IMG/VR virus record: IMGVR_UViG_3300025131_000562
Span: 1-20,170 of that record
Source of the DNA: a virus
Length of the DNA stretch: 20,170 bases
Strand: one strand, 5' to 3'
The translations under genes and the position numbers were made by a program. Positions 1,186 to 20,170 of the stretch are shown one piece after another (position 1 is the first letter of the stretch; every line of letters starts with the position of its first letter). The notes beneath the pieces were generated by a model. The model was not told the origin of the DNA, did not search any database, and saw nothing but the letters and a program-made list of their open reading frames with translations.

Positions 1186-4100
1186 TTATTCCTTATTTTG
1201 ATTTTCTAATGAATGAATATGACCATCAGCCTTTTGAACAATGCCATCTATGATATCATGGAAATGATCATCATTTTCAGAAGTTTTTCCATTTCCTTCA
1301 TTATCAGCCATATATGTATGAGCATGGCCATCGTCATACGACGTCATCCCTCTATTAGTTTGATAAAGCACTTGAACGTCCATTTTGGCCATTTCGACAA
1401 TTGATACATAATCATATGGCCAGTTATAATCCACGGGATATTCAGCGGACGTACCGGCTGCAGTATCCGGAATAGGCGCCGATTCGCCAGCCAGGGACGT
1501 TATCTTCTCAAAATAGCTGCTCATCCCTCGTTGTTTCACTTTGAACAACATCCACCTTAGATTTTCATTATTGTGGATTATATCAGCATCTAGTAACTCA
1601 GTGTCCAATAGTTCGTGTGCAACTGAGGTGTTCTCCAATTGAAATTTCTTATAATTTCTCGGAGCCAAGTTCTGCCAAATATAAGCTAAATCATTTTTGT
1701 CTAATTCATATTCAAATTCGAAAATATACATTACAACCGGTTTAATATCTCTATTGTTTTTGAAATCAAACATGGGAGGAAGTACATAACGATCCATTTT
1801 CTGTAAGAGTCGGCGAATAGAGGCGCCGGCCGTCTCTAATGAATCTCCCTTTGTGCTCCCTTTGGCTTCCGGCAGCGCTGCCTCAAATCGATCTTTGGGA
1901 ATGTTAATAAATTTTTTCCGCTGGTATGATAAGTCCGTGTTGGTGGTAGTGGTGCTGTCAACTCTTTCAATAATATACGGGACGGCGACTACCGCTTCTT
2001 TAATTGTTTGCTTGTTGGCAAGCTCTCCCATTCGTTTCTTGCTGGTTTCCTTATCAAAGCCCAGCAATTTGCTTAGAGAGCCAATATCAGAGTATGCGGT
2101 TCGACCATATTTGGCTGCGTGGCCACGATTATATATTGAATCGTTGTTAATGACATCATAATGATATTTTAACCAATTGGTACTATCGATATCCCCGATT
2201 GAAAGGAAAATTCCCATGTTAGGCGCAGATGGTGGCACACCAAATTGATGCCACATACCACGAGGCACCGACGACGATCCGTATACGGGCAACGTCAGAG
2301 TTCCATTAGCGTTCGTAATGGGATGTATAGGATCTGCATCTGTAAAATTCATCATAGGAGTTTCAAATTTAGATTGAATAACCCATCGTTTAGCCGCAAT
2401 TTTGTTTCTGTTGTCGATTAGGTTTCCAAACTTATCCGTCGTTTGTTCAAAGATGTTTTCTATTCCAAATATGTTAAAGCTGGAACTCAGATGGGCTACG
2501 TTGTGGTTAATGTTGCCGCCGCCATAGGGTGGACCGGGATCTTGCGCTCCGGTGGCGCATGCGGGAATATTTTGATACTTAGTCAAATTTGCGGTGTATC
2601 TCTCCGGGCCCGGGTCGAATCTCCAGTAGACACCACTAGTCTCGGACATAATTCGTTCTAAACTATAAGTCTCGCCGGCAATAGGGGCAAAAATCAAATC
2701 GCACCAAGCTTCTCCATCTGTGTACGGAGGAGTAAAAGCCGGATTACGACCAGTAAATGAATCTTGAACGCCATAGCTGCTCCCCTGCTGCGCCATGCTA
2801 GCGCCCACACCCGAAGCACCCCATTCGGGTCGGCCTGCGACGGGGGGGCCGAACGCCGTGGGACGGCTATAAGGCATAAACAAGGGCTTAAAAGAGGGAT
2901 TCATAATAGGATCTTGTGGGACCGGACACTGACTAAATCCCAATGAACGGCCGGCTGCAGCAGAGCCACTCCAGGCTACAAATCCATTTTTACCCCACCC
3001 AACACTCGTGCCGGCTGCGCCCGATTCAAAATTGTAATTACGTTGTCCATCAACGGAACGCTGCAGAATGATGCGAGCGCCGTAAATTTTGCCTTCTTCA
3101 AATTTTAGGTCGTCTGTAAGAGGGCCTGACTTAAGCGTTGTAAATTCGTTATTGGTTAAAAAGAAATTGGGTATTTCACCGAAAAAGTTGGAAGCCATTT
3201 TGCTGTAATTGGTATCAGCTTCGCCGCTCCACGAGGCCGTCACATTCATACTGCATGAAGGATGAGCCTCGTTGTCAACAAACAAAAGGCCATTAATATA
3301 TTTTTCCGGCTCAATAATGGTTTCGAAAGGCAAGCGCTGGTCCCACCATTCTCCTCCACTATATCCTTCCACATCACTATTGGTGTTCCGATTAATTGCA
3401 GTGAGGGCCCAATTATCTGTAGTGTTGGACGAACCAGTCCAAGCATAAGACAAGAACTTCTTTCCATCAGTTAAAATGGGATAATCCATTGCGACGCCGC
3501 CCTTCAAGCTATTAAACAAAATGCCCGGTGCAAAGAGAGGAGCAGCCAAAGGCCTAAACAGTGAACCCGACTTAGCGAACAATTGGGTTCTGGTGGGCAC
3601 GTCAGAGGCAGCCTTTCCGATAATTCCATTTCCAAAAGATCTTGAAAATTGACTTACCAAATCGAGGGCCCTCTGGGCAGGATAGAAACCCTTGTAGGGG
3701 TTAAATCTAATGGCGGCGCTCATCACCAATCTTATCTGTGAAGCGCTAAGATTTGTTTCAGCGGGAATATTAACAAATTCTTTCATAAACTCAGAATTTG
3801 AATAATCTTTATAAAAGCTGCTCTGAGAACTATCGAGTGATGTGCCGGGAATAGAGAAAGTATCGGTGATACTTTCGTTGTCAATTCCGTAAGTGGTATA
3901 GTCTTCCACATGGTCGCTAATTCTAAATTCAGGTAAAATAGAATAATTCTTGGCTATCAATTTCAAATCGTATTGATAATCGCCATATTTGTTAAACCAT
4001 GGCTGTGAGGCGCGCGATTGAAAAGCTGCAATTCCTGCGCTTTTAACAACAGTGCCCGCCTGAGTGTTGGCTTCCCATAAGGCCTCTCCTGCATAAGGCT

Positions 4101-7100
4101 CTGGAGCCAGCGTAACAGAACTAGAATTGAACTCTTGTTTCTTCCACTGAGCCGTGGGAATTTCTGCAATATTATTCCAAGGGCTGGCAGATTTAGGAGT
4201 CGTAAGCATGTGCTTGCGCGCATATAAGCCGGCGGGGCGCATAGCTTCAAATTTATTTTCTAAGGGTCCTCCCGTTGAGCCTTTGGTATCAAAATAGAAG
4301 AAATAGTTGTTTTGTAATTCGCCAGCGGCGCCGCTTACTTCTAAACCGATATCGGTCGCGCTGCCCGTGTCCCAACTCGGGGAAGGCAACGTAGCTTTCG
4401 TTCGCGTCAAAAAGTTTGTTTGAGCATCTAATATCCACGCACTCTGAGACACGCTCATGCTGAATGAATTTCTAAACGTGGCGCCAACAGTATTCCGAGC
4501 AGTTCGTGCGTCACGCCAGAACTTATTATCATATCCTGTGCGGAAAATAGTGGTTTGGTAAAATTCGTTGTAATCCGAAGGAAAAACTCCCTCTGTATAC
4601 AATAACCAATTAATCGTATATTTGGGATCTGCTGCTACGCCCAACACATGATCATAGGGAGTAACAATGCTCGCCCAGGGAATTGCTAAATAATTATCCA
4701 AAGCCGTATTGCTGGTTCCAATACGCTTGTTGTTGTCGCTAACTTGTATCGTAAAACTATTATCTAGCGAAGTCGGAGTCGTTACTTCTGAAGATTTGGG
4801 TGCAGTAATGTTGATTTTAGCAAGGCGTCCTTTTGTTGAAAGAGGCGTAAGGCGGTATGATGTCAATGCTGTTCCGGGAGGAGTCTTCGTGAGAGAAATA
4901 TTAGCTCCCGATATTTCCTTATTGTTGATGGGGTTATGGTTCTGGTGTAATTTCTGCCAATTCCAACCAAACGTGGCGCCTCTGCGTGTCATTAAGAGGT
5001 TAAAATAGTTAGCGGTGTTCCCGCGGACCAATGTTGCATCTGCAGCAGGCAACGCATCAAGCAGTGCGTTATTAAAATAATTCGTTGTGCTCGATCCTAG
5101 CGGTAGGCCAATCGTATTACTGGTTGATGCGGTCACAGGATCAATCGTTAGAATATTCAAACGCGTGGTTGGTTGATAGATCCCCGCGGAGGTTTCAATG
5201 TTAGTACCGCTCACAAAAGTAAAATAATGGACGTGGCCTGCGGTACCGGAGAAAAACCCCAATTGCCATGGGGCGGCTGACTCCGCAGTGGGTTGATAGC
5301 GGTTATACCTCATATCACTTGCGCTTAGAATAGAAGAACTTAACCAAGAATATTGACGGACGGCCCGTGGAATTGCGTGAGTTACAAAAGCATTGTCAAA
5401 ATTAGAACCGCTAGAATATCCAGATGACGAAGAGTCTATTAAAATAAGTCGATTGCGATTAACTTTCTGAAAGCTTGGTAGCTGAGCGTATGTTTGCCCT
5501 GGAGGGTTAAGTTCAAATCGAGAATCACGACCAAATCTCCCGGAATGCCTCGCCAAAAGAATACGCAAACCATAGTCCTTTCCTAACTGATCATATGAAC
5601 GAATACCAGCAGTACCAGTTCCTGTCGCTTCTGAGATAGATGATGACGCCTGGAAGGGTCGGATTACGGACCAGTTTCTGTAAGGAAGCGAATTGTAAAC
5701 AGAATATTCGCCTGAGCGAATGTCCATGTAGCCAAGCCCCATAGACTGAATATCTCCGGGGGCTGCGAATCTGCTAATGATAACTGACTTGCAAGGTGGA
5801 TCATCAGCGGAACGTAAATATGCGAGTGAATAGTTTGGAACGAATTGAAAATGAGATTCCTCTTGACGATGAATATCCATGTATGAACGCCCCTGGGACG
5901 CCGATGGTGTCTGCGTAATCTCCGTCGGAAGCGATGGTTGTTTCTTAATGAACTGCTGTGGGTTTGTGTAGGCGCCTACGGTGCTAATGATTTGATAATT
6001 CTGACTATAATTTCCGAGCACCATGCCATACGACTGAGAAATATTTCGAATGTTTACCGGTCGCTTGGCTGTATACCCGCGATAATACACAGCTTTCTGA
6101 GCACCGGTCATAGGATAAGGAAAGACGCCTGCTTCGTTGGCTTCGGGCCAAGGATAGTCCGGTCCAACCATTCCAATGGCGCCGCTTGTATCGGGACATT
6201 TACCCAAAAGTAACTTCCATGCCTCAGGACGCGTCAAATATGTATCGAGGGCGGAACCTGTATTAAGAGGAACATGTCGCGACTGGTGGCCACCAACGTG
6301 GTAGGAGGTGAAAGTTCCCTGCATGGGGACTTCCCAATCATCTCCGTACACGTCGTTATGTAAATTGACAACTTCTAAGGTGGAAGATAGGCGCGTGGCG
6401 ACGCGACGATTATAGCCCGATTCCACCGAAGCGCTCATAATATTAAACGGGAAGGCAAACGTAGACTTCGTATTAGAATAGCCGAAACCATTCTCCCAAT
6501 TGCGGCCGTGCTGTACTTTCGAGAATACTCTCTTGAGTTTTCTATTCGGGAGGAAGTTTGCTATATTGGCTTCAATCTCGTTCAACGGAAGCAAATCATC
6601 GATATTCGCAAATAAAGTGTTTTCAGGCACATATTTTCCGTCATCTTGATTGACGGGGCCCGCGGGATATAGCGCATTGTAAGTAAATCCTATGCTCTTG
6701 TTGCCATCGAAATTAACTCCACCATGAATCACGCTTCCGCTACGATTCTTCGTGCTGGTGTTTAATGCATCTCCTGTAATTGTGGCGAAGCTGTTGCCGC
6801 GGGTCGTACCTTGTGGCCGATAATACTGATTTCCCTTTGCATCTGTAAGCAATGGGAGGGTACTGGGATAAGTCGGTTCTGACCCAACAGCGACTCGATA
6901 AATGTTACGCTGATAGTCAATGGTGGCGTCGTTGCTGGTAATTTCCGCAGAGGTCCTGTCTGCTTGATATTTCCAGAAGTCGGCACTTACGTTTGTGGGA
7001 CGCGGGGACTCTGCAGGAGGAGACGGGGCATAAGCATAAGAACCAAAAGCGCTGGCCTCGGGGTCAGTTGTCTGATCTTTAATGATAGGATATTTGCTTT

Positions 7101-10100
7101 GGTATTTGTTCCTCTCTAAAACATGACTTTCAATCGTATTGTAAGAATCAGCAGTAAAATCTACACTTGCCGGTAACAATTGACCAATTACAAGAGCGAT
7201 GGCATCATCAAACCATTTGTAATATTCAATAAATTTCTCTACCTGGGTTACCCCAGTCCCCGAAAGGTTGTCGCTCGACACAGAGACGCGTCTAAAAAAG
7301 ATTTCTCGTAATTTTTCAAGAGCTTTATAACGGCCTCGGTATCGGTTAACCGGCTCTCCAATTACGTTATTAAAGTCAACAACTCCCGCAAAAAAGTCTA
7401 GTATTTCCTCTGAGATAGCATTATACATACTCTTTTCTAAAGTATATTTATAGCTCGGTGGTGATTCAAAAATCCCAAAATATACATCGTCATTGGACAT
7501 GATATTAACCATATCGGAAGATACTGCATACTCGGGATTCACAAATCTAAATGCGTTCACTGACTGACTATGAATGATGTCCTGTGAAGTGGCCGGCCAT
7601 CCAGAGCCAGATCCTACATGTTGATAACCAGCCAAATTTCCAACCCAGCCGTAATTGTTACGTAACTGGGCCGATCCAGAACTATGATCCTCTACAAAAA
7701 AGCTTCCATTAGCATCTGAGCTAGATAAATTATTAAAGCGCCAATCAAGCGCGAGCATGTTGGAGTTCAATACGCTCCCACTATTTTTCAAATTCAGATC
7801 AAGGGGAGAGATATGACGATAGGAGCCAGAGATACCAGAATTATCAAGATCATAGGCATGCTGATATAAGCTTAAGTCATCTACATACTTAGCCCAATAT
7901 TTTACTCCGTTAAAGAGCACGTCACACGGAGCAACCGATGCTCCTGTTATGTTTGTCCGAAGGGCGCCAGCAGATAATCTTTTAGCAGATTTCAAGAAAT
8001 TGTGGCCATCGTTCTGAGATAGAGAAGCTGTCAACGTAAAACTATTTTGAACAGTCCCAAGGACAGTGTTTATTCCTTGAAAAACCAAATCATAAGTATA
8101 CGCGTTTGTAATAGAACCGCTGACTATGTTGGTAGTTCCAAAATCGGTAGGCTTTAATCTTACGGAAATATTCCACCGTGAATCATCATAAACATCATAA
8201 AACATGCTACTCGTCAATTCGGGAATCAAATATGGAAAATTGCTCGATGATAATTTAAAATAAGCGTTCGTGGAACCATTATTCTCCTTTACGGCCATGA
8301 CTTGAAAGTTAGCAAAATCTGGCTGCCTTCCTTCGGTGGTATAGTTGGATACCCACGTTGTTGCTGTCCCATTAAGACTTGCTGCGCTTCCGGTGTCTGC
8401 TGTACACATTCCGTAAAGAGACACCTCTTTGTATTGTCTATTAAACGCGGTGGCATTTCGTCCCACCACTGGGAAAATAACGTCTGCTTCGGCTGTAAAC
8501 CCATACGGGAATTCATACCCTAAAATGCTAGATCCTGTTACTAGACCCGCACCGTTACTGCCTGAAATATATCCTAAGCTTTCCGCATTTGTGCCATCAG
8601 CGGCTTGATATACAACCCCCTGTTTCAGACTATCTCCATTTAAATTGAGAGTCTTTTTGGTAACCAGGCTTTGTTTTAAATTGTCCTTAAGTTCATAGAC
8701 TTCGTTTTGAGCATATATGTTTAACCTTACTACGCTGTCGTCTAAATTAAAACATCTATAAACATTTCGAATTGCTTTTTCAGTTCCCTTGCTTTTAAAG
8801 ATGTTTGTTAAGTTGTTGTAAAGATTGAGATAAATTAAATTCTTTGTCTCGTTCAAATCTCCATCGAATAACATCGTAGACGTACGATTTCTAAACCTCT
8901 CAAGAACATTTGCATCAATAAACACCTCGGGCATGTATAAGCCCAAAGATTGTGGCAAGTGTTGCGCAAACGGAAATGGACTTTGAGAAGCGCTAGTATA
9001 GCTTAAGTGTTTAAAAGTCGGGAGGGCTTTAATCTGTAATCTCAGTTTGTCGAAATAGGTGCCCACAATGTGAGATACAATCTCGATATTATTGTCGTAA
9101 GTCGCTACCGACTCATTAGGCAAAATACTATCTTGGGCTTCCACCACCCAACTCGGTATTAAGCTTTTAAATGCACTATTGTTGCTATAGTCGTGTTCTG
9201 CACCTTTGCTTAAAAGCGTATCTTTGAGAGTTATGACGCGCGGATTAGAGCTACGAATAATCGGATCTTCGTATTCTTGAGTGGCAGCGGAGGCGGAGAT
9301 GATTGCCGAACCGGTGTTCCGCGAATAAGTGCTATACCCAATCCAATTCCCATTAGAAATTCTACCGCTATAGTCCAAAACGTTATTATCTACGGCCGCA
9401 TCGGCCGTTATACCGGCGTTAAATTTATAATAGAGGCCCAGGGTCGCGTTAGAAATATCGGTATTCGTACCGCCCCTTACTTGCGTAAACCAGTTTTCTC
9501 CAATTTCCTTTGGAGTCCGTGCAACTTTCCAAAAACGAAATTCATCAATGCTAGCACTTAATTTGCCTTGCCCGGCACGGCTTGTGGTTTTTCCGGAAGC
9601 GGGAGCTATAAGAGCGCCTAGGCGGCCGCCCATGGCCCCCGTAAGACTGGCTTTTGAAGCTAATGACCCTAGAGTCCCAAAACTGCCCACCGTGGTACTA
9701 TCTATTGCGCCCGTTACATACAACTTCGCGACCAATTGACTGCCCGAATTCTGAAGACTTAAGGCATAGTGTTTCCAGTTTCCATCCGCGATGGTGCTCG
9801 TATCAATATCATTAGAGCCAATCTTCTGCTCTCGCCATCCCGTGGAGCCGCTCCTCACTGTGAGCAGCAGTGGAGGATCGAAGCCGGCGGCGGCGGCAAC
9901 TAATGTAATACGACCATATCTATATCCCGTCGTTCCGCCGGTTCCGTCGTTTTCTTCTCCATTCCATATATCGAAAATTACTTCCTTGTTCGTTTTGGAG
10001 CCGCCCACGAAAGCGTCTTTTTTCATCCAAAATTCAACAGTCACTCCAGTATCAAAATCGCATTTAAGATTGGATTCTCGCGAGCCCGACCCATAATTCG

Positions 10101-10674
10101 CCTCTAAACCGGCTGTTGTATAAATGTCAGTATCATATACGTTCGCATAGTTTCGTTTAGCGGTGGTGATATCGGGGAAAAGGGCTGCAGCTGTGCTCGA
10201 TGTAACCGTGTGAGGGCCACCGCTAAATTCAATATATTCATAGTCGTAAGCGCCACCGGCAGTCCCAGGGGTACCATATCCTCCAGACAAATTACCAAGA
10301 CGCGTGCCCCATCCCGTACTGCTAGCACATAATTTTGCGTAGCCTGTACTTCGCGGATACTCTTTCTCAAAAATATAATTTTCAATATCTAACGATTTAT
10401 TATGAAAGTCAGTAATTTCATATTCCGACCCGTCATAAGGAAAATAATCTAGAACTCTGTTAATCGCAGAGTTATAATAGAGGCGCGCCGAGCCATATTT
10501 GGCAAAGTTTCGCGGCTGGGAATAGTTGACCTGTGGGACAAAGCGCTCTTGCTGAGTACTAATAGCGCTTACATTTTTGGCTGACTCTACATCTTCAAAC
10601 GCTTTCTTCTCACTAGTGTCTGAAAGATAGTTGCGTGATGTGTTAGTAGATTCAAAAAGTTTCTTAATACTCAT
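1186..10674 (-). CDS. Giant baseplate/tail-fibre-like structural protein with LamG-like domain(s), 3162 aa
   Basis: This 3162-residue protein is probably a baseplate-attached virion component that contacts the host. Regions seen, approximate residues: 200-440, LamG/concanavalin-like sandwich, with V-E-F-W-M near 211 and the hallmark I-D-E-F-R-F-W-K-V-A-R-T-P-K-E-I near 375; 510-665, a helical stretch with K-S-K-G-T-E-K-A-I-R-N, resembling tail proteins of the gpI/gp7 wedge type; 720-950, a possible second LamG-like fold ending in Y-W-A-K-Y-V-D-D-L-S; 1085-1196, a helical block with I-G-E-P-V-N-R-Y-R and E-S-H-V-L-E-R-N-K-Y; 1433-1471, V-N-L-H-N-D-V-Y-G and G-G-H-Q-S-R-H; 2978-3028, F-E-F-E-Y-E-L and I-W-Q-N-L-A-P; 3113-3156, three H-x-H motifs. 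Many Ser/Gly/Thr-rich loops lie between. No signal peptide or membrane helix is apparent. The ATG at 10674-10672 overlaps the upstream gene by 11 nt and has only a weak RBS, so reinitiation is likely. T4 gp7 is about 1030 residues, so this is roughly three times larger. LamG and placement are well supported; the gpI/gp7 relation is inference. Confidence 0.88.
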   Translation of the reverse strand: MSIKKLFESTNTSRNYLSDTSEKKAFEDVESAKNVSAISTQQERFVPQVNYSQPRNFAKYGSARLYYNSAINRVLDYFPYDGSEYEITDFHNKSLDIENYIFEKEYPRSTGYAKLCASSTGWGTRLGNLSGGYGTPGTAGGAYDYEYIEFSGGPHTVTSSTAAALFPDITTAKRNYANVYDTDIYTTAGLEANYGSGSRESNLKCDFDTGVTVEFWMKKDAFVGGSKTNKEVIFDIWNGEENDGTGGTTGYRYGRITLVAAAAGFDPPLLLTVRSGSTGWREQKIGSNDIDTSTIADGNWKHYALSLQNSGSQLVAKLYVTGAIDSTTVGSFGTLGSLASKASLTGAMGGRLGALIAPASGKTTSRAGQGKLSASIDEFRFWKVARTPKEIGENWFTQVRGGTNTDISNATLGLYYKFNAGITADAAVDNNVLDYSGRISNGNWIGYSTYSRNTGSAIISASAATQEYEDPIIRSSNPRVITLKDTLLSKGAEHDYSNNSAFKSLIPSWVVEAQDSILPNESVATYDNNIEIVSHIVGTYFDKLRLQIKALPTFKHLSYTSASQSPFPFAQHLPQSLGLYMPEVFIDANVLERFRNRTSTMLFDGDLNETKNLIYLNLYNNLTNIFKSKGTEKAIRNVYRCFNLDDSVVRLNIYAQNEVYELKDNLKQSLVTKKTLNLNGDSLKQGVVYQAADGTNAESLGYISGSNGAGLVTGSSILGYEFPYGFTAEADVIFPVVGRNATAFNRQYKEVSLYGMCTADTGSAASLNGTATTWVSNYTTEGRQPDFANFQVMAVKENNGSTNAYFKLSSSNFPYLIPELTSSMFYDVYDDSRWNISVRLKPTDFGTTNIVSGSITNAYTYDLVFQGINTVLGTVQNSFTLTASLSQNDGHNFLKSAKRLSAGALRTNITGASVAPCDVLFNGVKYWAKYVDDLSLYQHAYDLDNSGISGSYRHISPLDLNLKNSGSVLNSNMLALDWRFNNLSSSDANGSFFVEDHSSGSAQLRNNYGWVGNLAGYQHVGSGSGWPATSQDIIHSQSVNAFRFVNPEYAVSSDMVNIMSNDDVYFGIFESPPSYKYTLEKSMYNAISEEILDFFAGVVDFNNVIGEPVNRYRGRYKALEKLREIFFRRVSVSSDNLSGTGVTQVEKFIEYYKWFDDAIALVIGQLLPASVDFTADSYNTIESHVLERNKYQSKYPIIKDQTTDPEASAFGSYAYAPSPPAESPRPTNVSADFWKYQADRTSAEITSNDATIDYQRNIYRVAVGSEPTYPSTLPLLTDAKGNQYYRPQGTTRGNSFATITGDALNTSTKNRSGSVIHGGVNFDGNKSIGFTYNALYPAGPVNQDDGKYVPENTLFANIDDLLPLNEIEANIANFLPNRKLKRVFSKVQHGRNWENGFGYSNTKSTFAFPFNIMSASVESGYNRRVATRLSSTLEVVNLHNDVYGDDWEVPMQGTFTSYHVGGHQSRHVPLNTGSALDTYLTRPEAWKLLLGKCPDTSGAIGMVGPDYPWPEANEAGVFPYPMTGAQKAVYYRGYTAKRPVNIRNISQSYGMVLGNYSQNYQIISTVGAYTNPQQFIKKQPSLPTEITQTPSASQGRSYMDIHRQEESHFQFVPNYSLAYLRSADDPPCKSVIISRFAAPGDIQSMGLGYMDIRSGEYSVYNSLPYRNWSVIRPFQASSSISEATGTGTAGIRSYDQLGKDYGLRILLARHSGRFGRDSRFELNPPGQTYAQLPSFQKVNRNRLILIDSSSSGYSSGSNFDNAFVTHAIPRAVRQYSWLSSSILSASDMRYNRYQPTAESAAPWQLGFFSGTAGHVHYFTFVSGTNIETSAGIYQPTTRLNILTIDPVTASTSNTIGLPLGSSTTNYFNNALLDALPAADATLVRGNTANYFNLLMTRRGATFGWNWQKLHQNHNPINNKEISGANISLTKTPPGTALTSYRLTPLSTKGRLAKINITAPKSSEVTTPTSLDNSFTIQVSDNNKRIGTSNTALDNYLAIPWASIVTPYDHVLGVAADPKYTINWLLYTEGVFPSDYNEFYQTTIFRTGYDNKFWRDARTARNTVGATFRNSFSMSVSQSAWILDAQTNFLTRTKATLPSPSWDTGSATDIGLEVSGAAGELQNNYFFYFDTKGSTGGPLENKFEAMRPAGLYARKHMLTTPKSASPWNNIAEIPTAQWKKQEFNSSSVTLAPEPYAGEALWEANTQAGTVVKSAGIAAFQSRASQPWFNKYGDYQYDLKLIAKNYSILPEFRISDHVEDYTTYGIDNESITDTFSIPGTSLDSSQSSFYKDYSNSEFMKEFVNIPAETNLSASQIRLVMSAAIRFNPYKGFYPAQRALDLVSQFSRSFGNGIIGKAASDVPTRTQLFAKSGSLFRPLAAPLFAPGILFNSLKGGVAMDYPILTDGKKFLSYAWTGSSNTTDNWALTAINRNTNSDVEGYSGGEWWDQRLPFETIIEPEKYINGLLFVDNEAHPSCSMNVTASWSGEADTNYSKMASNFFGEIPNFFLTNNEFTTLKSGPLTDDLKFEEGKIYGARIILQRSVDGQRNYNFESGAAGTSVGWGKNGFVAWSGSAAAGRSLGFSQCPVPQDPIMNPSFKPLFMPYSRPTAFGPPVAGRPEWGASGVGASMAQQGSSYGVQDSFTGRNPAFTPPYTDGEAWCDLIFAPIAGETYSLERIMSETSGVYWRFDPGPERYTANLTKYQNIPACATGAQDPGPPYGGGNINHNVAHLSSSFNIFGIENIFEQTTDKFGNLIDNRNKIAAKRWVIQSKFETPMMNFTDADPIHPITNANGTLTLPVYGSSSVPRGMWHQFGVPPSAPNMGIFLSIGDIDSTNWLKYHYDVINNDSIYNRGHAAKYGRTAYSDIGSLSKLLGFDKETSKKRMGELANKQTIKEAVVAVPYIIERVDSTTTTNTDLSYQRKKFINIPKDRFEAALPEAKGSTKGDSLETAGASIRRLLQKMDRYVLPPMFDFKNNRDIKPVVMYIFEFEYELDKNDLAYIWQNLAPRNYKKFQLENTSVAHELLDTELLDADIIHNNENLRWMLFKVKQRGMSSYFEKITSLAGESAPIPDTAAGTSAEYPVDYNWPYDYVSIVEMAKMDVQVLYQTNRGMTSYDDGHAHTYMADNEGNGKTSENDDHFHDIIDGIVQKADGHIHSLENQNKE

Positions 10675-12391
10675 AGTCTTCTACTCTGAATTTGAATGTG
10701 TCGGGTTGTTCCACCCAAGAACTCACAGCATTATCATAAAACGCAAATTTAAAAGCATATGAATAGCCGGGCTCCAATAAATTCATATCAAAGTCAAAAT
10801 AATTTCCCGACACATCGTACGACATCGCAGTATGCTTGTCGCTTCCAGTGCCATATGGGACAGCTAAATATGCATCAAGCGTACGATATACTTTATAAGA
10901 AGCGCTAATAATGTTTGTTGTAGGGGCATTTACATTCGCTTTCGTAAAAACTGTCGGATCCCAATTCTTGTCTCTCACATACAAATTGAATCGTGCAATT
11001 TCGTTTCCACGATACTTCCCTTTCAAATTGGTGATGCTCATATAATAAGTTGGGCGGCCGGCATTGTTCTGGGCACGTAAAGTGTTACAAGGAATCGAGC
11101 CCGTAAAATATTGAATGAGGGCATCATTAGCACTTGTTGTGGCGTCACTACCGGTAAACCACACATCATAAATGGTTTCAAGACCTGTCGCGCCGGTGAA
11201 AGCAAACGAGGCACTATAAATTCCCGTTGAAACGATGCCTCCTGTTATAACTGTGGGGGCGGCACTGCGAACGTGGCCAACATTGTCAGTAGACAAGAGT
11301 TGTATGCTTCCGGTTGAGCCAGAAACCGGCACGTTTGAAGGTGGCACGTCGTCTCCGTCGCCACCTTTATAAAATCCTCCTGTTGAACCAGAATAAATAC
11401 TTACATATATGCGTTTTTCAAAAGTTCCCGCATAGGCTTGAGGAATATCAGATAGTTGTCCATCGATGTAATTGTAAAAATATATGGTGTTGAGGTTTTT
11501 GTCCGCTGATGCCAGGGAACTACTAAGGAAGAAGTCTCCGCGGTTGTCGCGCTTTGCTGAATCCCACCGAGCTTCAAGTACTGGCTTCTTAAAGAAATAT
11601 TCGGTACCCCGAGCGAAAAAACGCTTGGTATAATAAGAGGTAGTGGAGCCGCTGGGGTTGTAAATTACACTCTGAGTGCTATCGTCTCCATCTAAAGCTA
11701 ATTGGCCCGGGATACGACTAGTAACTGTATTGGCTGACCCTGACTCGTAAGCCTCATAGCTTGCGGAGAGGTGGATCCCCATACCGTAATTTGAGTAGGT
11801 TCCAGCAACCCATTGCTCCACCAGAGGCGTTACATCTAATTCCATGTCTTCTAACCCGGTTGTAAACGACTGAGTAAAGGTGAAGATTTCGGTATTAACT
11901 ACACCAGCAACAGCCCCTCCAGTAATATAAGAGCCGCCCGCCAGTACCGTATTGCTAACATCCGTCCAATAGGCGGTGTTAGAGGCGCTCATCCAATTGG
12001 ATCCTTGATTGCCTAAAGTCAAATCTTGATAATTATCTAAATCTAATCCCACTCCTTCTTGCCATGACTGCGATACTGCCACAACAGTTAAAGTATAATC
12101 GCGTGGGACCGTCTTGGTGGTAGATGCATTAAACAAACGCAAATAAAAACTAACACTTCCGCTAGCCGGCACAACACCATTACTCCTATCCGTCGAAATA
12201 TCCGTAATGGGAAATTTCATTAAAATGCGAGATAATTCTTGAGAACTTGTCGTTACGCGTCCATAAATCGAAAACGTTTCAACTATGTCGGCCACACCTG
12301 CGTTAGAGCCTGTCCCTCGTGTGCGCAAATTGGATTCGTACGCATTAACAATTGTGTTGTCTGCGTCTGCTTTATATCGTTTTATAGCCAT
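10664..12391 (-). CDS. Beta-rich structural protein with DNRLRE-like N-terminal half, 575 aa
   Basis: A 575-residue protein between the gp6-like wedge protein and the giant protein. Residues 1-220 follow the pattern of DNRLRE-type repeats, which are beta-sandwich modules of surface proteins. A strand with S-R-I-L-M-K-F-P-I is followed by V-S-F-Y-L-R-L-F-N and T-V-V-A-V-S-Q-S-W-Q-E-G, then L-D-V-T-P-L-V-E-Q-W and N-Y-G-M-G-I-H-L. Around 254-284 comes F-F-A-R-G-T-E-Y-F-F-K-K-P-V-L-E-A-R-W-D-S, which I recall from other marine phage structural proteins. The C-terminal half looks like Ig- or fibronectin-like beta modules. There is no signal peptide. Its ATG shares one base with the stop of the gp6-like gene (TAATG), and AGGGG lies 12 nt upstream, a long spacing that fits coupled translation. 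It overlaps the giant gene by 11 nt. A role as connector between wedge and outer fibre-like protein is inferred from position. Confidence 0.85.
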   Translation of the reverse strand: MAIKRYKADADNTIVNAYESNLRTRGTGSNAGVADIVETFSIYGRVTTSSQELSRILMKFPITDISTDRSNGVVPASGSVSFYLRLFNASTTKTVPRDYTLTVVAVSQSWQEGVGLDLDNYQDLTLGNQGSNWMSASNTAYWTDVSNTVLAGGSYITGGAVAGVVNTEIFTFTQSFTTGLEDMELDVTPLVEQWVAGTYSNYGMGIHLSASYEAYESGSANTVTSRIPGQLALDGDDSTQSVIYNPSGSTTSYYTKRFFARGTEYFFKKPVLEARWDSAKRDNRGDFFLSSSLASADKNLNTIYFYNYIDGQLSDIPQAYAGTFEKRIYVSIYSGSTGGFYKGGDGDDVPPSNVPVSGSTGSIQLLSTDNVGHVRSAAPTVITGGIVSTGIYSASFAFTGATGLETIYDVWFTGSDATTSANDALIQYFTGSIPCNTLRAQNNAGRPTYYMSITNLKGKYRGNEIARFNLYVRDKNWDPTVFTKANVNAPTTNIISASYKVYRTLDAYLAVPYGTGSDKHTAMSYDVSGNYFDFDMNLLEPGYSYAFKFAFYDNAVSSWVEQPDTFKFRVEDYEY

Positions 12392-14187
12392 TAGACCACT
12401 TTACCCCTAATATCGGTGGCAGGAAATTTAATTTCTGCTATTGCATTCGCCGGTATAATAAGATAAGTTCCGTCCGGCGACAAATTGGCGTTAATATCAA
12501 TGTTGGCAGAGCCATATGTGCCCCCCACTTTGCTTGTTAATTTAACCGTCACAACATCTAAAATACCAGGCACCGACTGAAGAGTGGAAAAAATGTTAGT
12601 AATATAGACTGGTTCTCCGATATAAAAGGCTGTCGAATATGTGTCACTCAGCGCAGTCACGGCATTATCCAATAAAACATATTTATCTGTCCCAGTCGCA
12701 GCTTTAATTGTAAACTCGATGCCTAAATTCAGAATATAGGGATCCAATATATCAATCGTGTCATTAATCATTCTATACTGATTAAGCCATGTTTTTAAAT
12801 TATTTTTAATTGTTGAATTTGTGGCTGTTAATTGATTCTGGGAATTTTCTGATATCACATAAAGATTTAGATTGCGCTTTTGAGAATTTGGGTCTTTCTG
12901 GGCTGAGCACCGCTTAATAGATCCGAGACGTGGAGGCATCCGATAGGCCACATTTTCATAGTCGGCTTGCGTCACTGCACGATTTTGGGTGGGAAAAGTG
13001 TCATAAATGCGCCTTTTTACCTCTGCTGAGGTTGGAGTAACCACGTCTCCCACAATCGGCTCTTCATTGGTAACTTCTAATGAATCCACCACGGTCTGCA
13101 TTGTAGTTCTCGTCAAAGTGTTGGGGTCGGAAAAATTCATTCTCGCGTCCACTACTTTATTTAATCCCGCGGTTGCAACATTTGAATTAGTTGTGTTCGT
13201 TGTGCGATAAGTAACTGTTAATGTAGTATTAGAAGGAACGATTCCAAAATTTTGATTACGCGTGAGGCGCGTTGGATCGAAAGTGGTGGCTGTAACATAT
13301 TGTTTTCCAAACGTGTTAATCGCGACCGATTGTGGATCTGCTACTACATCGCTTTCGCCGGATTTTCCACTCCCAAACTGCAAATAAGTATTAATGGCGT
13401 CCCTCTCTACGACAAATTTACGCGACACCAACATCGGCTTTAGAATAGAAGGAACATTATCGTTTTTATAATTGGTATTGGTGATTTCTTTTAAAATCAT
13501 ATCCGAAGCCAAATACTCTACTTCGTAATACTCCTGTCCTTGGCTATCTACCACAGAAATTACCTCGGCAATGTTGTTGGATGACAACCTTACCTTCAAA
13601 AATTTCTCGTACGCTCCAATTTTAATCTTTTGAGTTGCAAAATTGCCAGACACAACGTTCCCATAAGCCTTGATGGCATAATAGGTTGGCGCGCCAGTCG
13701 CACTATCTACCGTCGCGACTACAATGGGGTTTTTAGGATCGGAAAAGTCTACATTATCCGTTAAAATAAAACCTAAACCAGTTTGAGATGTGAACCTGCA
13801 GCCTTTTTTAACTATGGGAACATAATTTGTGTCAGGGCCTAGGCCTGTGCTGGATGCTGGCACTATCACATAAAGCGCCACAGAGCCATATGTTGAGGGG
13901 CGTCCCTGGTATTTATATCCCAAGATACGGCCATGGCGAATGACGTTATTATATTGATACGCAGTGTCCAAAAAGGATTCGTTAACGTTATAATCTAAAT
14001 AAAATGAAAGCTGGTCGCCGACGTAAGCCACCGCATCTACCATCATCGCCCCAAACGAAGCTTCGCTCCAATCTTTAAATGTGTCAGGATATAATCTTTC
14101 GGCCAATTCCATTAAGTCTTGCCGAATTGTGGTATACTCGCGATGTGTATAATCTATGGGTACTAATTTTTTTTGTTCGTCGGACAT
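12391..14187 (-). CDS. gp6: Baseplate wedge protein, gp6 / baseplate-J-like, 598 aa
   Basis: Homologue of T4 gp6 and the baseplate J family. In T4, gp6 dimers form the inner ring that joins the six wedges around the hub and rearranges on tail contraction. The N-terminus is typical of T4-like marine phages: D-Y-T-H-R-E-Y at 12-18, L-Y-P-D-T-F-K-D-W-S-E-A-S-F-G near 32-46, V-G-D-Q-L-S-F-Y-L-D-Y at 56-66, N-E-S-F-L near 69-73 and L-G-Y-K-Y at 89-93. The J-type core is visible around 401-425 (R-A-V-T-Q-A-D-Y-E then P-R-L-G-S-I-K-R-C). The C-terminus ends with a G-K-V-V tail after an I-K-F-P-x-T-D-I-R-G motif shared by marine gp6 proteins. Length is close to T4 gp6 (about 660). The start at 14187 follows GAGGG at 6-7 nt, 16 nt after gp25. 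The last base of its stop region is shared with the next ATG. I see no defect. Confidence 0.94.
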   Translation of the reverse strand: MSDEQKKLVPIDYTHREYTTIRQDLMELAERLYPDTFKDWSEASFGAMMVDAVAYVGDQLSFYLDYNVNESFLDTAYQYNNVIRHGRILGYKYQGRPSTYGSVALYVIVPASSTGLGPDTNYVPIVKKGCRFTSQTGLGFILTDNVDFSDPKNPIVVATVDSATGAPTYYAIKAYGNVVSGNFATQKIKIGAYEKFLKVRLSSNNIAEVISVVDSQGQEYYEVEYLASDMILKEITNTNYKNDNVPSILKPMLVSRKFVVERDAINTYLQFGSGKSGESDVVADPQSVAINTFGKQYVTATTFDPTRLTRNQNFGIVPSNTTLTVTYRTTNTTNSNVATAGLNKVVDARMNFSDPNTLTRTTMQTVVDSLEVTNEEPIVGDVVTPTSAEVKRRIYDTFPTQNRAVTQADYENVAYRMPPRLGSIKRCSAQKDPNSQKRNLNLYVISENSQNQLTATNSTIKNNLKTWLNQYRMINDTIDILDPYILNLGIEFTIKAATGTDKYVLLDNAVTALSDTYSTAFYIGEPVYITNIFSTLQSVPGILDVVTVKLTSKVGGTYGSANIDINANLSPDGTYLIIPANAIAEIKFPATDIRGKVV

Positions 14188-14207
14188 TAAAAACCCTCAC
14201 TTTTTAA
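14187..14207 (-). promoter_or_regulatory. Inverted repeat enclosing the gp6 Shine-Dalgarno
   Basis: On the message the arms UUAAAAA (14207-14201) and UUUUUAA (14193-14187) are perfectly complementary. They enclose the 7-nt loop GUGAGGG (14200-14194), which carries the Shine-Dalgarno of the gp6-like gene. The first arm contains the gp25 stop codon (UAA, 14206-14204); the second arm reaches the A of the gp6 AUG. All seven pairs are A-U, so the stem is weak. A ribosome finishing gp25 would open it. The repeat is certain; a regulatory role is inference. Confidence 0.4.
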
Positions 14208-14572
14208 GTAGTTATTTCTAATAAATCTTTGGTTCCGAGGCCGGGAATAGAATATATAATTGCAATCCCCAAATAATTGTTATCGGGATCAGTATTAGAA
14301 AACGAAATTCTTTGTAATTGAATAGCCGGCATATAGGTTTTTACTTGTTCCCTAATTTTGGTATCAATTTTACTCATAGTATCTTGGCCAAAATTTTCAA
14401 ACAGATACGTGCGAACCCCAACCCCAAAATTAGGATCCATGACTCGCTCCCCGGGATTAGTTAGAATTAGCATTTTTAAATTTTGCTTAGCGACACTTCG
14501 GATATCTTTATTCATCCTGAAGCCGTCGGCATCATCAATTACTAATGGAAGGGCTACTCCTAATGAACTCAT
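14204..14572 (-). CDS. gp25: Baseplate wedge protein, GPW/gp25 family, 122 aa
   Basis: Member of the GPW/gp25 family (Pfam PF04965; T4 gp25, P2 gpW). In the baseplate it sits at the inner wedge with gp6 and nucleates sheath polymerisation. The family signature is clear: L-I-L-T-N-P-G-E-R-V-M at 35-45, D-P-N-F-G-V-G at 46-52 and Y-L-F-E at 56-59. The core extends to a C-terminal strand I-A-I-I-Y-S-I. The length of 122 residues is normal (T4 gp25 is 132). The start at 14572 has a strong Shine-Dalgarno, AGAGG at 14584-14580, 7 nt upstream, and lies 25 nt after the stop of the large upstream gene. It is followed by gp6 after 16 nt, the classical gp25-gp6 or W-J neighbour pair. Intact. Confidence 0.96.
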   Translation of the reverse strand: MSSLGVALPLVIDDADGFRMNKDIRSVAKQNLKMLILTNPGERVMDPNFGVGVRTYLFENFGQDTMSKIDTKIREQVKTYMPAIQLQRISFSNTDPDNNYLGIAIIYSIPGLGTKDLLEITT

Positions 14573-14597: not shown

Positions 14598-17500
14598 CTA
14601 ATCTTTCTTTTCACACAATTCTCCGGTCGCATTAAACGGATTAGTTCTTAACATACGCCGTTTCCACCAAGGTAGCAAGTTCTGGCCAGGTCGAGATTTA
14701 AATCTTTCTTTAAAGCCGGCTGTGATGATTGTGCCAGGAGAATCCGAGTCATCTTTCTGGCCGGGTTGGAAGTCTCTGGCGTTATAGTAACTCTTGAAGA
14801 TCTTTTTAATTCGACTTTTGGAGCTGCGTAATAACGTTTGATCCCACTGATCCCACTCTTTAACAAATAGACCTCCAAAAATGCCCGGGTCGCGGTCGAG
14901 CTTACTTGCCCAACCACCTCCGTCTGGATATGAAAGTACTTCCTCATCCGGACCTTCGGTGGCATCGGAAGTGTCCGGGCCTTCTACATCGGGAGGGTAA
15001 ATACCTGCTTCTCCTTCTTCATTAAAAGTCAAAGCTACTCCCGGTTTGGTATAGATGGTATTTTTCTCTGCATTTAATATATCACTCAAAGAGGGTACCT
15101 CGTCGGCATCTCCAAAATAATAAGGCCCAATGGTTTGATTATCATTCACCATTTTTTCACCGATGGACGGCATAAAGGCCAAACCATTATAAATGGCCAT
15201 TGTGGCTGCAATTTTCTTGAGAGGGAAGATATAATCAGCCACTAATTTAAACTTTTCATCCTCTTTAAGCATGTTAATTAAACACAATAACATTTTGCTA
15301 GATCCCTCAAAAGGATCCACAGAGCCAATTCCGACATCCAACGAATCTACTTCTACACTGGTAATGACAACTTTAGTTCCACTGATCAAAACCGAAAATT
15401 GCAAACCATATCTTACTCCTAGTTCTCCCGTCAAGCCTACAATTTGTCCGTTAGCATCAGATACCAATTCTAAACTTCCGGGATATACATCGGAAATATT
15501 AAGCTCATTGTCGTTTGCCTTAATTAGATCAACAGCTGCCGAAGGTGTCTTGTTGCCGTATCCTTCCACATAGATATACTTTTCAATCACAAACGGCTTG
15601 CTACTGTCTGTACTGTCACTAACAGCGTCTTCAATGTCACTAATATCTCCAATGGTTACTGTTACTTTATTGGCAAATGGAGTAAGAACTTCTCCCTCGA
15701 CATCCGCTCCGCTAAATTCCCCAGTCATGTAAATTGGGTTTCCCGAACCATCGTCTTCGACATGGTAATACCCCGTATAAGCAGAACCATCGGATAACAC
15801 AAATTCATTACCGTTAGTGAAAAGTTCTTCTCCTTCTGTTGGAAGGTCCACATATTCTTCTTTTATTTCTTGGTCCAACGTTAATTCTTCTCCGCCTTGG
15901 GCCAAATACTGCAGCAGATAATATGCCATATCATAAATGGTGGGAGCCATCCCAATAATTTTAAGATTCTCAACGAATTTCTCTCCCATTATGTTCAACT
16001 GCTCAACCACTAACTCTTTAAGAATGGCTTTGGCATCTTCTTCGGTAGCTTGCACAGCTTCTAAGTTTTTACTTTCCCTATAATTTTTTAAAGTTTCAAA
16101 CAGGCCGGCATCTCCTACTTTTTTAGCTTCTTTTAAATTATCCCTATATGGGTAAAGATATTTTTCTTGAACGTCATTAAGTCTAATTAACGCGTCCACA
16201 ACAGCTGCGGGTGGGTCGGGGATCTCTCCATTGTCCACGCGCCGAGAGTATAGTTGAACTGATTGTTCTAAAAATGCATACCAAAATTCGGTATCTTTAA
16301 ACGGATTGAAAAGTTCCCAGAAGCCCTTTTGCGCGTCCTTATAAGAAGCTTCCATTTCCTCTACTATGTAAGAGGCATATAAGGAACTAAATACATCGGG
16401 AAATTTAGGGTCAAATTTGGTAAATGTGGCCATTGATTTTATAAAATACATGCTCACATAAATACGAATAGCTGCTGTAATGATACTTTCTAGACCGGCG
16501 GCTCCAGATCTTTCCAAAATTCGAGCATATGGAACTTCCACAACACAATCCGGATCCGATTTTAAGCGCTCATCTTCCGGAATACTCGGATAAGAATCTT
16601 CAATTTTTTGTTCAATATCTTCAAAATCAATCAAATCGGTTCTATAAGGCTTGCAAGGACTCAATTCGGGAAACATCACGTCTACGAGACCAAGCCAACC
16701 TTTATTCTGGAGAGGTTTAATATATAAAGGAGGATTCATATAGGATCCTCCGAAAGTATTAGGATCGAGATAGTACACTCTATTGGCATCTGATCCAGAG
16801 ATAAATTGCATTTTACTGACGCCCATAATGTGATCGTCATTTTTTATATTACGTAAGTTTCCTTCGTCATCTACAAATTCTACCTCATAATAAGGAGAGC
16901 CGGCTGCATAGCCCCCCAACGCTTCATCAATTACGTATACGACATCATCTGGAGACAAATCATCATAAACTGCACCATATAAAAATGATGCCGAGTTGTT
17001 GGCCACCAGATCTACAAAAGTTTGTGTTATAGCCGACATCGCCGAGTCATGAACTTCCTTGATCGTTGAAAGCGCAAAAGTGTACCCGGCGCTGGCTGCC
17101 ATCTCTTCCAGCAGAACCAACTGTGGGAGATAATCTTGCTTAGCTTCGAAAGTGGCTAAAAACCTCGGATACTCCGTTAGGTCAATTTCATCTAAAGTAT
17201 TATCAGCTGCCCGAAATTCAAATTTTCTAGTGGGCAATTGATGAATTTCGGTATTATCTGGCTTAAGTGTCTTCATCAATGCTGTATAAAGAACCGGCCT
17301 CCAGAACTTAAGCATTCCCGGAACCGTGGCAGCTAAAGCTGTGTAAGTATTTGCACTTACGTTGTAATTATCCATGATTTTAATTCTAACATTGTCGGTT
17401 GGAACATTGTGAACTGCGTCATCTTTCTCTTCTAAATCGGCTAAATAAAATTCTACATCAAACCCATAAGAATACATGGAATCTACTTCTTCCGAATCCC

Positions 17501-20170
17501 ACAAACCTTTGCAATTATCATAAAAGCTTAAAGTCATATCTGGCGTCGCTTTACGTGGATGCTCAATATAAGTTACTTCATCCTCTTCAAAATCTGTTTG
17601 CACCTCTACATCATATCCCAGATCTGGTAATTTGAGCAGATTAATGTCTCCTCCAAACGTAGTAATTCCCGCGTCTTTAAATGATTCAGAATATTTCTTT
17701 TCATCTTGAAGAGTGTTGTTGGAATCAAATGACGGACTTAAAGACGATTGCAAATATTCTTCTAACCAATCAGCAATTTTATAAGGAAAGGCGCCTCTTT
17801 GTAAAAAAGTAGGTGCCGTGGGGGAAGCGAGAGATCCGAACACTTCCCCTAAGCCAGTTAGACCGGTACCTCCGTCAAGGTCAACTCCTCCATCGGTGTA
17901 AAAATCTACATAAAATGGGTTATTGGAGGCTTTTCTCATGTGAGCAGTTAGGGGGTTTCCCATAGTATCTGCTAAAATCATATTGACGAGGCCCCATCTT
18001 CCGTCGCCCGGGCCATTGCCGAGCATGTCATATGCATAATCTACTTTTAATTGTTCCAGCATTCCGTTAAGCGCTGCTGTCGCGACAGCCACTCCCTCTT
18101 CGCTTTCATAAGGAAGAAGGCCATCTTCACAACCCGGCTCAGAAAACAAAGGGGGCAGGTTATCAGCTAAATAGCCAGAGACGCCGCCCTGCAGGACATC
18201 GCTTAAATCTTTAAGATCTTCCAATGGCTGGCTGCTATCACAAAGCTTTTCAATTTGTTCAGGTGTGGCACGACCTTCTAAAATCTGAGATCTTAATTCA
18301 CAAAAATCTTCTAATTGTTCTGGAGTCGCACATAGAGAAGGATTCGCAGGCGTAATAGGATCACCGGCGAGGCCATCTGCCATATCTTGAAGTTGAGAAC
18401 GAAAATCGGCGGGCATTAGGTTTCCCATGTTCCCAAATAAGCTACCGATACTCTCTGGGTTGGGGAGGCCTGCTTGAAAATCGGGGTATTCATATTCTAT
18501 CAAAGAAGCCACAATCGTAAGGAAGTCTGGGGATGGGTTACCCAGGAAAGCGTTGCTTAGCTCCTCCATGGTAACGGATGCGGAAATATCTTCCGCAAAG
18601 CTCATCACTTGCTCCGTGTCAGCCAAGGCTGCACCGCCGACTCCCAGAGTCGCAAACATATCTACGATAGTGTTATCAATCTGTTCTTGATCGGTGTCTT
18701 CTCCACAAATGGAATCTCTAATAACATTTGCCAAATTGTCTCTACCGGTGGCTAAGTCTACCACCGAAGCGGCTAAATCGCCGGCGGTACCTATCGAATC
18801 ACAAAGCGCAGAACCTATAGATTCGCAAATTTTAACCATCAACTTCATTAACAACGCCACCACTGCTTGCTGAATAGCAAACTTGGCAGCCTCAAACAAA
18901 AATCCTGTCAAATCTTTTATTTTCGGAATGAAACCGAAAGGGTTTTGAAGAGCCGGCATCGTCAGATCGAACGGATTTTCGCAAAAGGGAAGATCCGCGT
19001 CTTTTACAAAATCTAAGAAGCTCGGATTAAAGGCGGGAGGAAGTGGGCAATCCAGAGTAGCAATCACAGCCGCAACAACCTGTGCTCCGGGGAATTTGTT
19101 TAATTCTTCTAATAATTCAAAATAATTATCGGAGTACACCTCGATGAGAGCCAATATGTAAGCTTCAAATACCACGTTAGGACTTAATTGCTTAGAAGCC
19201 GATGAACCAACATCTAATTGCTGCACTAGTGTTCGTCGTGAGTTCTCTGAAGTATCTTGTATTTCTCCCGCTGTCATCGTTTCGCCTGTTGCGGACGGTT
19301 GTTTCTCGCTCTCATTTTGAGCCTGCACTAACTCGTCGTCTTCCCATGGTTTAGTGTAAGTAAGCTTTCCAGCTAGTACATCAGATGTCTGTTGGTTAAC
19401 GCCGCCGTCTTCAAAAAACTCTCCATTTTCAAATTTCTTCTTGACTAAAGCATCTAATTCTGCTTGTTTTTCGGGAGGAAGGCCAATAAACAAGTCTCCA
19501 AAGTTTTCTAGACTCATAGCCTGCAGGGCGCTTTTCGCGACGGTGCTTAGTGTTTCCTCTAAGGACAAGCCTCCAAAAAGACACTGAATTGAATCCATCA
19601 TTAAATTATAAAGGCCGCACAACTTAATCTTATCAAATCCCTGCTCCCAAATATCTTCTAACGCGTCTACTCCGCCAATTCCGCCACTTATTATTTTCGC
19701 ACAAAATTCTTCAAAAACCGCCTCATCCATCTCTACCGTTTGAAACGCCTGTTCTGCGGCCATGGCTTCAATTTTCTTCAACTGATCCGAATTAGGATCC
19801 CACACATAGCCGATCTCTATGTCATCTTGCACGACTTCACCAATTTCTGCGCGGCATAGGTTTTTATGAAACTGGAAAGCAATAGCGTCTCCGATGCTAA
19901 AGGCTTCATCTAAAATATCTTGACCAAGCTGTTTAGCCTCCTCTTGTAGTGCCTCAGCAATACAACTAGCGGCTGAATTCTCGGGATCGGTATTCGCGTA
20001 CGCCTGATTTATTGAAGAATATATGGTCGGATAAGTATATTTTTCCACAAACTCCAACCAAGGGACTGGTTCTCTAGCGGTTAAATCCGTTTCCATGTCG
20101 GCCAATTGCGCAAGATATGCCATTGCGGTGGGGTCTTTCCAAGCAGTTTGTGTTTTTAAAAATCTTAATT
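14598..20170 (-). CDS. Very large Cys-rich phage structural protein, partial at N-terminus (>1841 aa)
   Basis: The first ATG in the window is at 20123, giving 1841 residues, but the same frame stays open for 15 more codons to the right edge. Those codons read as ordinary protein (A-W-K-D-P-T-A before the Met), and no good Shine-Dalgarno precedes that ATG. The gene therefore probably begins outside. Numbered from 20123: 1-430 is mainly helical and acidic, with repeated Cys; 406-431 is a hydrophobic helix (A-V-V-A-L-L-M-K-L-M-V); 598-628 holds a tandem T-P-E-Q motif; 1200-1420 is helical; 1432-1470 is a small beta insert with L-S-D-G-S and G-Y-Y-H-V; 1609-1655 is a helical block; 1700-1736 is an acidic, Pro/Gly linker; 1745-1841 is a basic tail. 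It ends with TAG 25 nt before gp25. Genes just upstream of gp25 in T4-like phages are often hub or baseplate genes, so a baseplate/tail role is likely, but I recognise no domain of known function. Confidence 0.85.
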   Translation of the reverse strand, partial: LRFLKTQTAWKDPTAMAYLAQLADMETDLTAREPVPWLEFVEKYTYPTIYSSINQAYANTDPENSAASCIAEALQEEAKQLGQDILDEAFSIGDAIAFQFHKNLCRAEIGEVVQDDIEIGYVWDPNSDQLKKIEAMAAEQAFQTVEMDEAVFEEFCAKIISGGIGGVDALEDIWEQGFDKIKLCGLYNLMMDSIQCLFGGLSLEETLSTVAKSALQAMSLENFGDLFIGLPPEKQAELDALVKKKFENGEFFEDGGVNQQTSDVLAGKLTYTKPWEDDELVQAQNESEKQPSATGETMTAGEIQDTSENSRRTLVQQLDVGSSASKQLSPNVVFEAYILALIEVYSDNYFELLEELNKFPGAQVVAAVIATLDCPLPPAFNPSFLDFVKDADLPFCENPFDLTMPALQNPFGFIPKIKDLTGFLFEAAKFAIQQAVVALLMKLMVKICESIGSALCDSIGTAGDLAASVVDLATGRDNLANVIRDSICGEDTDQEQIDNTIVDMFATLGVGGAALADTEQVMSFAEDISASVTMEELSNAFLGNPSPDFLTIVASLIEYEYPDFQAGLPNPESIGSLFGNMGNLMPADFRSQLQDMADGLAGDPITPANPSLCATPEQLEDFCELRSQILEGRATPEQIEKLCDSSQPLEDLKDLSDVLQGGVSGYLADNLPPLFSEPGCEDGLLPYESEEGVAVATAALNGMLEQLKVDYAYDMLGNGPGDGRWGLVNMILADTMGNPLTAHMRKASNNPFYVDFYTDGGVDLDGGTGLTGLGEVFGSLASPTAPTFLQRGAFPYKIADWLEEYLQSSLSPSFDSNNTLQDEKKYSESFKDAGITTFGGDINLLKLPDLGYDVEVQTDFEEDEVTYIEHPRKATPDMTLSFYDNCKGLWDSEEVDSMYSYGFDVEFYLADLEEKDDAVHNVPTDNVRIKIMDNYNVSANTYTALAATVPGMLKFWRPVLYTALMKTLKPDNTEIHQLPTRKFEFRAADNTLDEIDLTEYPRFLATFEAKQDYLPQLVLLEEMAASAGYTFALSTIKEVHDSAMSAITQTFVDLVANNSASFLYGAVYDDLSPDDVVYVIDEALGGYAAGSPYYEVEFVDDEGNLRNIKNDDHIMGVSKMQFISGSDANRVYYLDPNTFGGSYMNPPLYIKPLQNKGWLGLVDVMFPELSPCKPYRTDLIDFEDIEQKIEDSYPSIPEDERLKSDPDCVVEVPYARILERSGAAGLESIITAAIRIYVSMYFIKSMATFTKFDPKFPDVFSSLYASYIVEEMEASYKDAQKGFWELFNPFKDTEFWYAFLEQSVQLYSRRVDNGEIPDPPAAVVDALIRLNDVQEKYLYPYRDNLKEAKKVGDAGLFETLKNYRESKNLEAVQATEEDAKAILKELVVEQLNIMGEKFVENLKIIGMAPTIYDMAYYLLQYLAQGGEELTLDQEIKEEYVDLPTEGEELFTNGNEFVLSDGSAYTGYYHVEDDGSGNPIYMTGEFSGADVEGEVLTPFANKVTVTIGDISDIEDAVSDSTDSSKPFVIEKYIYVEGYGNKTPSAAVDLIKANDNELNISDVYPGSLELVSDANGQIVGLTGELGVRYGLQFSVLISGTKVVITSVEVDSLDVGIGSVDPFEGSSKMLLCLINMLKEDEKFKLVADYIFPLKKIAATMAIYNGLAFMPSIGEKMVNDNQTIGPYYFGDADEVPSLSDILNAEKNTIYTKPGVALTFNEEGEAGIYPPDVEGPDTSDATEGPDEEVLSYPDGGGWASKLDRDPGIFGGLFVKEWDQWDQTLLRSSKSRIKKIFKSYYNARDFQPGQKDDSDSPGTIITAGFKERFKSRPGQNLLPWWKRRMLRTNPFNATGELCEKKD

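Follow-up and report, generated by a model that had tools for sequence, protein, structure and literature searches.

The DNA analyzed here (the window) is a 20,170-nucleotide virus fragment of IMG/VR (IMGVR_UViG_3300025131_000562), and 47% of it is occupied by a single open reading frame (ORF) on the minus strand (positions 1186–10674), which starts with ATG and encodes a 3162-amino acid (aa) protein. A preliminary description, made from the letters of the window, had reported an ORF of this length in nearly half of the window, about three times the size of T4 gp7, and had placed it after a gp25–gp6 wedge pair and one small partner. The size (3.06 times that of T4 gp7) and the wedge pair were confirmed. 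A gp6-type wedge protein (598 aa, 12391–14187, minus strand) was assigned with the PHROG baseplate wedge profile (E 5.5e-17) and by hhalign to T4 gp6 (86%), and a gp25-type wedge protein or sheath initiator (122 aa, 14204–14572, minus strand) with PF04965 (E 2.8e-14). The one additional gene, which separates the giant gene from gp6 (P0003, 10664–12391, minus strand), is a conserved neighbour, but it encodes 575 aa and hence is not small. Its product weakly matches the Disaggregatase-repeat family (E 0.009), and over the first 200 residues it reads like a carbohydrate-binding module.

The order upstream of the giant gene is the 575-aa gene, gp6, gp25 and an open 1856-aa frame (14598–20168). The latter is conserved in the relatives with the long form of the chain, fused or split (median 2044 aa), was not found in the core-only relatives, and matched no known family. 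A 361-aa gene downstream of the giant gene (72–1157) is also found downstream in 45 long-form loci and had no family match. Among 79 loci, the position of the giant gene behind homologues of gp25 and gp6 was conserved in 76 to 78.

A scan of IMG/VR proteins returned 126 relatives, 80 of which were kept. The distinct full-length chains (n = 38, including L077, which is the first, long part of a chain divided between two genes) measure 2927–4732 aa (median 3540), and the chain of the window is the eighth shortest. The longest member found (L066:10001–24199) has 4732 aa and six lectin-type domains. Full-length relatives, the closest with 43–63% identity, match the giant ORF almost from end to end, and therefore it is no chance open frame. 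Three blocks that had looked conserved from the sequence of the window all scored above average in the 38-sequence alignment (residues 1085–1196, 95th percentile; 1433–1471, 98th percentile; 2978–3028, 91st percentile), and residues 401–480 and 561–640 were conserved to the same extent or more. Segment-vs-segment comparison of the giant protein revealed no internal repeats beyond the designed overlaps.

A C-terminal-half profile retrieved at least 551 matches from IMG/VR, and no match was found by tblastn with both halves against cultured-phage records or with the whole protein against GTDB genomes. The family profile did match the genes at the same position in the cultured Microcystis phage Mel-JY01 and Flavobacterium Immutovirus, and in the 484-kb phage LR756508 (E 1e-12 to 1e-14), and a second scan that started from these three genes yielded at least 392 more relatives, with chains mostly of 1044–1850 aa. 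The T4-type major capsid protein Gp23 was found in 9 and a contractile sheath in 8 of 20 long-form contigs; those without either may be fragments. The gene is carried by hundreds of T4-capsid phages, uncultured and for the most part marine, and the source of the window would be an uncultured, probably marine, T4-capsid myovirus. The sheath frames of the eight contigs (G002, G004, G007, G008, G012, G013, G016 and G020) have 968–1136 aa, well above the about 660 aa of T4 gp18.

Among 40 aligned relatives of the giant protein, the invariant residues fall in two lobes, residues 485–700 (8575–9222, minus strand) and the highly conserved residues 1075–1210 (7045–7452, minus strand). The lobes are adjacent in Immutovirus gp109, because the insertion between them (residues 701–1074; 7453–8574, minus strand) is missing there. 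The initial gpI set from IMG/VR consisted of nearly identical copies and was useless as a profile; therefore a diverse set of 12 P2 gpI proteins was fetched from phage records. By hhalign, the first lobe matched this profile with a probability of 53% (P 1.3e-4, score 34.6) and the family of gp055 of pelagiphage HTVC008M with 47% (P 1.9e-4, score 39.7); probabilities this close to 50% do not by themselves amount to proof. The score of 34.6 compares with a mean of 11.5 and a maximum of 23.1 for 299 column-shuffled gpI profiles, and with 21.1 or less for all remaining tested segments of the window's proteins; the gp055 score compares with shuffles at or below 22.4. The gp055 family in turn matched T4 gp7 (89%, P 2e-6, score 63.4; shuffles at or below 31.7). 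Direct comparison of the core with T4 gp7 was marginal (score 26.0, shuffle maximum 24.6, background 24.5). This says little, since gpI and gp7, an accepted pair, are themselves undetectable to each other with these profiles (score 16.3).

The gpI, gp7 and gp055 alignments all converge on K-x-K-G-T in the same column, which in the window is the K-S-K-G-T motif at residues 627–631 (8782–8796, minus strand). Among 100 relatives, the first K and the G are invariant, and the second K and the T nearly so. A suspected likeness of residues 510–665 to gpI/gp7 was borne out by profile comparison, with this segment enclosed by the gpI/gp7-like first lobe. Taken separately, the second lobe matched neither gpI nor gp7 by hhalign, and scans of the core against Pfam and PHROG gave no credible match. 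Nothing credible was found in a PDB sequence search with four profiles, in which the core profile found no chain. Proteins of the gpI/gp7/TssG class have a helix-turn-helix at the N-terminus (core bundle) and a trifurcation sheet. An isolated 245-residue core slice (478–722) gave a weak AlphaFold model (pLDDT 70, pTM 0.37), with a confident start and predicted helices at 2–20, 31–39 and 52–78 of the slice, and this model had no PDB match. Membership of the giant protein in the gpI/gp7/TssG-type wedge proteins is probable on the evidence of profile similarity, the motif and the position of the gene rather than of structure.

The core is preceded by a conserved N-terminal segment without a known domain (residues 1–140; 10255–10674, minus strand) and by a LamG/concanavalin-A-like domain (residues 145–453, extent from the family HMM; 9316–10242, minus strand; PF13385, E 1e-6). 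PF13385 (Laminin_G_3) scored 29.4 bits on residues 208–391 when the N-terminal 480 aa were scanned and 25.2 bits when the whole protein was scanned, against a cut-off of 27.6. It was matched in 30 of 32 aligned relatives (best 7e-17). Behind the core lies a variable middle (residues 1211–2050; 4525–7044, minus strand), which in relatives is a hot spot of inserted lectin-type domains. Insertions of 70–377 residues in the chains of relatives occur at 329, 1225–1241, 1471–1526, 1593, 1719–1752 and beyond, and out of 47 inserted segments 30 matched PF13385 and 9 Pentaxin. With a family-trained HMM, the chains have 1 to 6 lectin-type domains, the window's chain having 1, and the core-only relatives none; interrupted domains were counted in pieces in three chains. 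Since the training of this HMM included insertions in part, independent evidence comes from the Pfam matches. The insertion at 701–1074 was considered as a second LamG domain and rejected, with the first LamG domain vs. the insertion at 5% or less and the LamG HMM finding only residues 145–453.

The receptor-binding part that the preliminary description had proposed within the chain is present in the form of a lectin-type domain, which could bind receptors. The LamG domain, the lectin-type insertions of relatives and the variable middle would also fit a main role as receptor-binding or tail-fibre protein, with the gene lying beside the wedge genes and its product being no wedge subunit. We consider this unlikely: the core scores against the gpI and gp055/gp7 profiles are far above those of shuffles, comparison of the window's proteins with the profiles revealed no second gpI/gp7 candidate next to gp6, conservation and not hypervariability marks the N-terminal part, the core and the C-terminal globule, and the C-terminus is predicted to be a globule rather than a fibre.

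This globule (residues 2051–3110; 1345–4524, minus strand) was modeled by AlphaFold2 from 84 sequences with a mean pLDDT of 87.4 and a pTM of 0.91. Foldseek of the model against the PDB gave no match (best E 0.59, TM 0.05). Against BFVD, seven viral proteins matched over about the whole length (E 4e-37 or better), the sole named one from an uncultured marine virus. The C-terminal half had no credible match among Pfam, PHROG and PDB sequences. The globule was present in all nine long-form records (fused or split) searched whole, and in none of ten core-only records searched, including the complete Mel-JY01 and Immutovirus genomes. Prediction together with the gene splits demonstrates both its fold and its separability; it may be a new fold.

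A connector part of the gp8 or gp10 kind had also been suspected in the chain. The gene position, and the natural splits that reveal a separable module, would suit a T4-type wedge connector (gp8, gp10 or similar) that was fused on as the C-terminal part, but in hhalign every segment remained at background against T4 gp8, gp9, gp10, gp11 and gp12 and P2 gpH, and the confident globule model found no match in a PDB library that should include the solved T4 baseplate chains. A fused connector is therefore quite improbable, and this part of the earlier proposal found no support.

The assignment as a gpI/gp7-type wedge protein was then compared with known systems. P2 gpI (Tail_P2_I), T4 gp7 and T6SS TssG share with the giant protein the place behind gp25/gp6, and gpI also the KGT motif and the similarity of core profiles. 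In contrast, gpI has 176 aa and gp7 1032 aa, and the protein of 3162 aa adds an N-terminal LamG domain, a C-terminal globule of 1060 residues and an insertion within the core. Mel-JY01 WWT39511 (1336 aa) and Immutovirus gp109 (1265 aa) are alike in the core and in the kind of upstream neighbours, although both genomes are without the C-terminal globule, and Immutovirus also without the core insertion. HTVC008M gp055 directly follows gp6, matches the profile on the same motif and is itself a gp7 homologue, but it has 1016 aa, and neither the LamG domain nor the C-terminal globule found a match in it. The gp055 gene (L369:28436–31486) is labelled 'head closure Hc2'; its family matches T4 gp7 and, weakly on the KGT motif, gpI.

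In pelagi- and cyanomyophages, gp7 is reported to be absent and replaced by VrlC, a protein of about 2000 residues (PMC7029224). As far as profile similarity goes, the gp7 homologue gp055 of HTVC008M contradicts the published absence of gp7 in pelagimyophages (PMC7029224). A giant protein that is the counterpart of VrlC would agree with the similar large size, the same wedge region and the report of VrlC in phages without gp7 (PMC7029224). However, no tested segment of the giant protein matched a 39-sequence VrlC profile (probability at or below 0.3%), and the core matches gp055, itself a match of T4 gp7. Kinship to VrlC was rejected on this profile result, and we regard it as very improbable.

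The long chain is encoded by two adjacent genes in five groups of relatives, with five different cut places. In window residues, the cut lies at about 1782/1815 in L069–L073 and L080 (linker 1782–1818; 5221–5331, minus strand), 1826/1853 in L341 and L342, 1828/1838 in L344, 2065/2068 in L350, and 2337/2377 in L077 (linker 2337–2377; 3544–3666, minus strand). The second genes of the split pairs have Shine-Dalgarno-like sites. In a tree of the core, the core-only forms are on one side of a branch with a support of 100, and the split forms are nested among the fused ones, with ∼4 changes needed; the tree was built by a quick method, and its well-supported branches force only two changes. Given that the cut lies at different places, the simpler reading would be a chain that was ancestrally single and was split later. 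Relatives without the C-terminal half and two-gene relatives both exist, as expected of a fusion of separable parts; together with the core profile matches, they support both the wedge assignment and the fusion that had been proposed for this protein. That the ORF unites separate genes because a stop was lost or the assembly is wrong, as the two genes of some relatives could suggest, is refuted by dozens of diverged relatives with a single chain of 2927–4732 aa and by the split forms that fall within the fused group, and we give an artefactual ORF practically no credence.

These data suggest that the gene most probably encodes a baseplate wedge member of the gpI/gp7 type (TssG-like), enlarged at both ends, with additions in the window's protein before, inside and behind the core, and that it works as follows: (i) in each of the six wedges, one giant copy would clamp two gp6 proteins via the core (485–700 and 1075–1210), by homology to gpI/gp7; (ii) the LamG domain (145–453), with up to five more in relatives, would point outward and bind host-surface glycans; (iii) the globule (2051–3110), held covalently on the wedge, would act as a peripheral shell or adaptor, the counterpart of which would be a separately encoded, recruited protein in other phages; and (iv) by analogy with T4 and XM1, the wedge would be pulled open when the globule and the lectin domains touch the host, and the opening signal would pass via gp6 and gp25 to the sheath. 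The proposed working mode resembles that of Vibrio phage XM1 gp17, a gp7-type wedge protein that directly anchors the receptor-binding tail spikes, which it holds with a loop and its C-terminus (PMC10457771). TssG holds the TssK trimers with two loops (PMC6300606). XM1 gp17 differs in its 242 aa and in spikes that are separate proteins rather than fused domains.

The wedge core is of an already known type, and the lectin-bearing two-part giant form is new. A function is hereby proposed for a giant 'unknown' that is frequent in viral metagenomes, mostly marine ones; it would link this protein to the wedge, the trigger of sheath contraction. A design with lectin domains built into the wedge is suggested. 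We put forward, tentatively and with a slight leaning against it, that the C-terminal 1060 residues may be a new, widespread virion fold fused to the wedge protein of an abundant uncultured group of T4-capsid phages, and that with lectin domains gained and lost the wedge may have become a host-sensing surface. If so, the wedge itself would sense the host and would not serve as a platform to which receptor-binding proteins are recruited separately. The analysis exposes a large, confidently modeled domain for which the PDB search found no structural precedent, and the natural fission sites offer places to cut the chain for expression.

The globule is followed by an optional histidine-rich tail (residues 3108–3162; 1186–1353, minus strand) of the form DGHxH ... 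DHxH ... DGHxH, with a weak likeness to YmaF (E 0.005) and to phrog_15223. A similar stretch is also present in an upstream 1887-aa ORF of L039.
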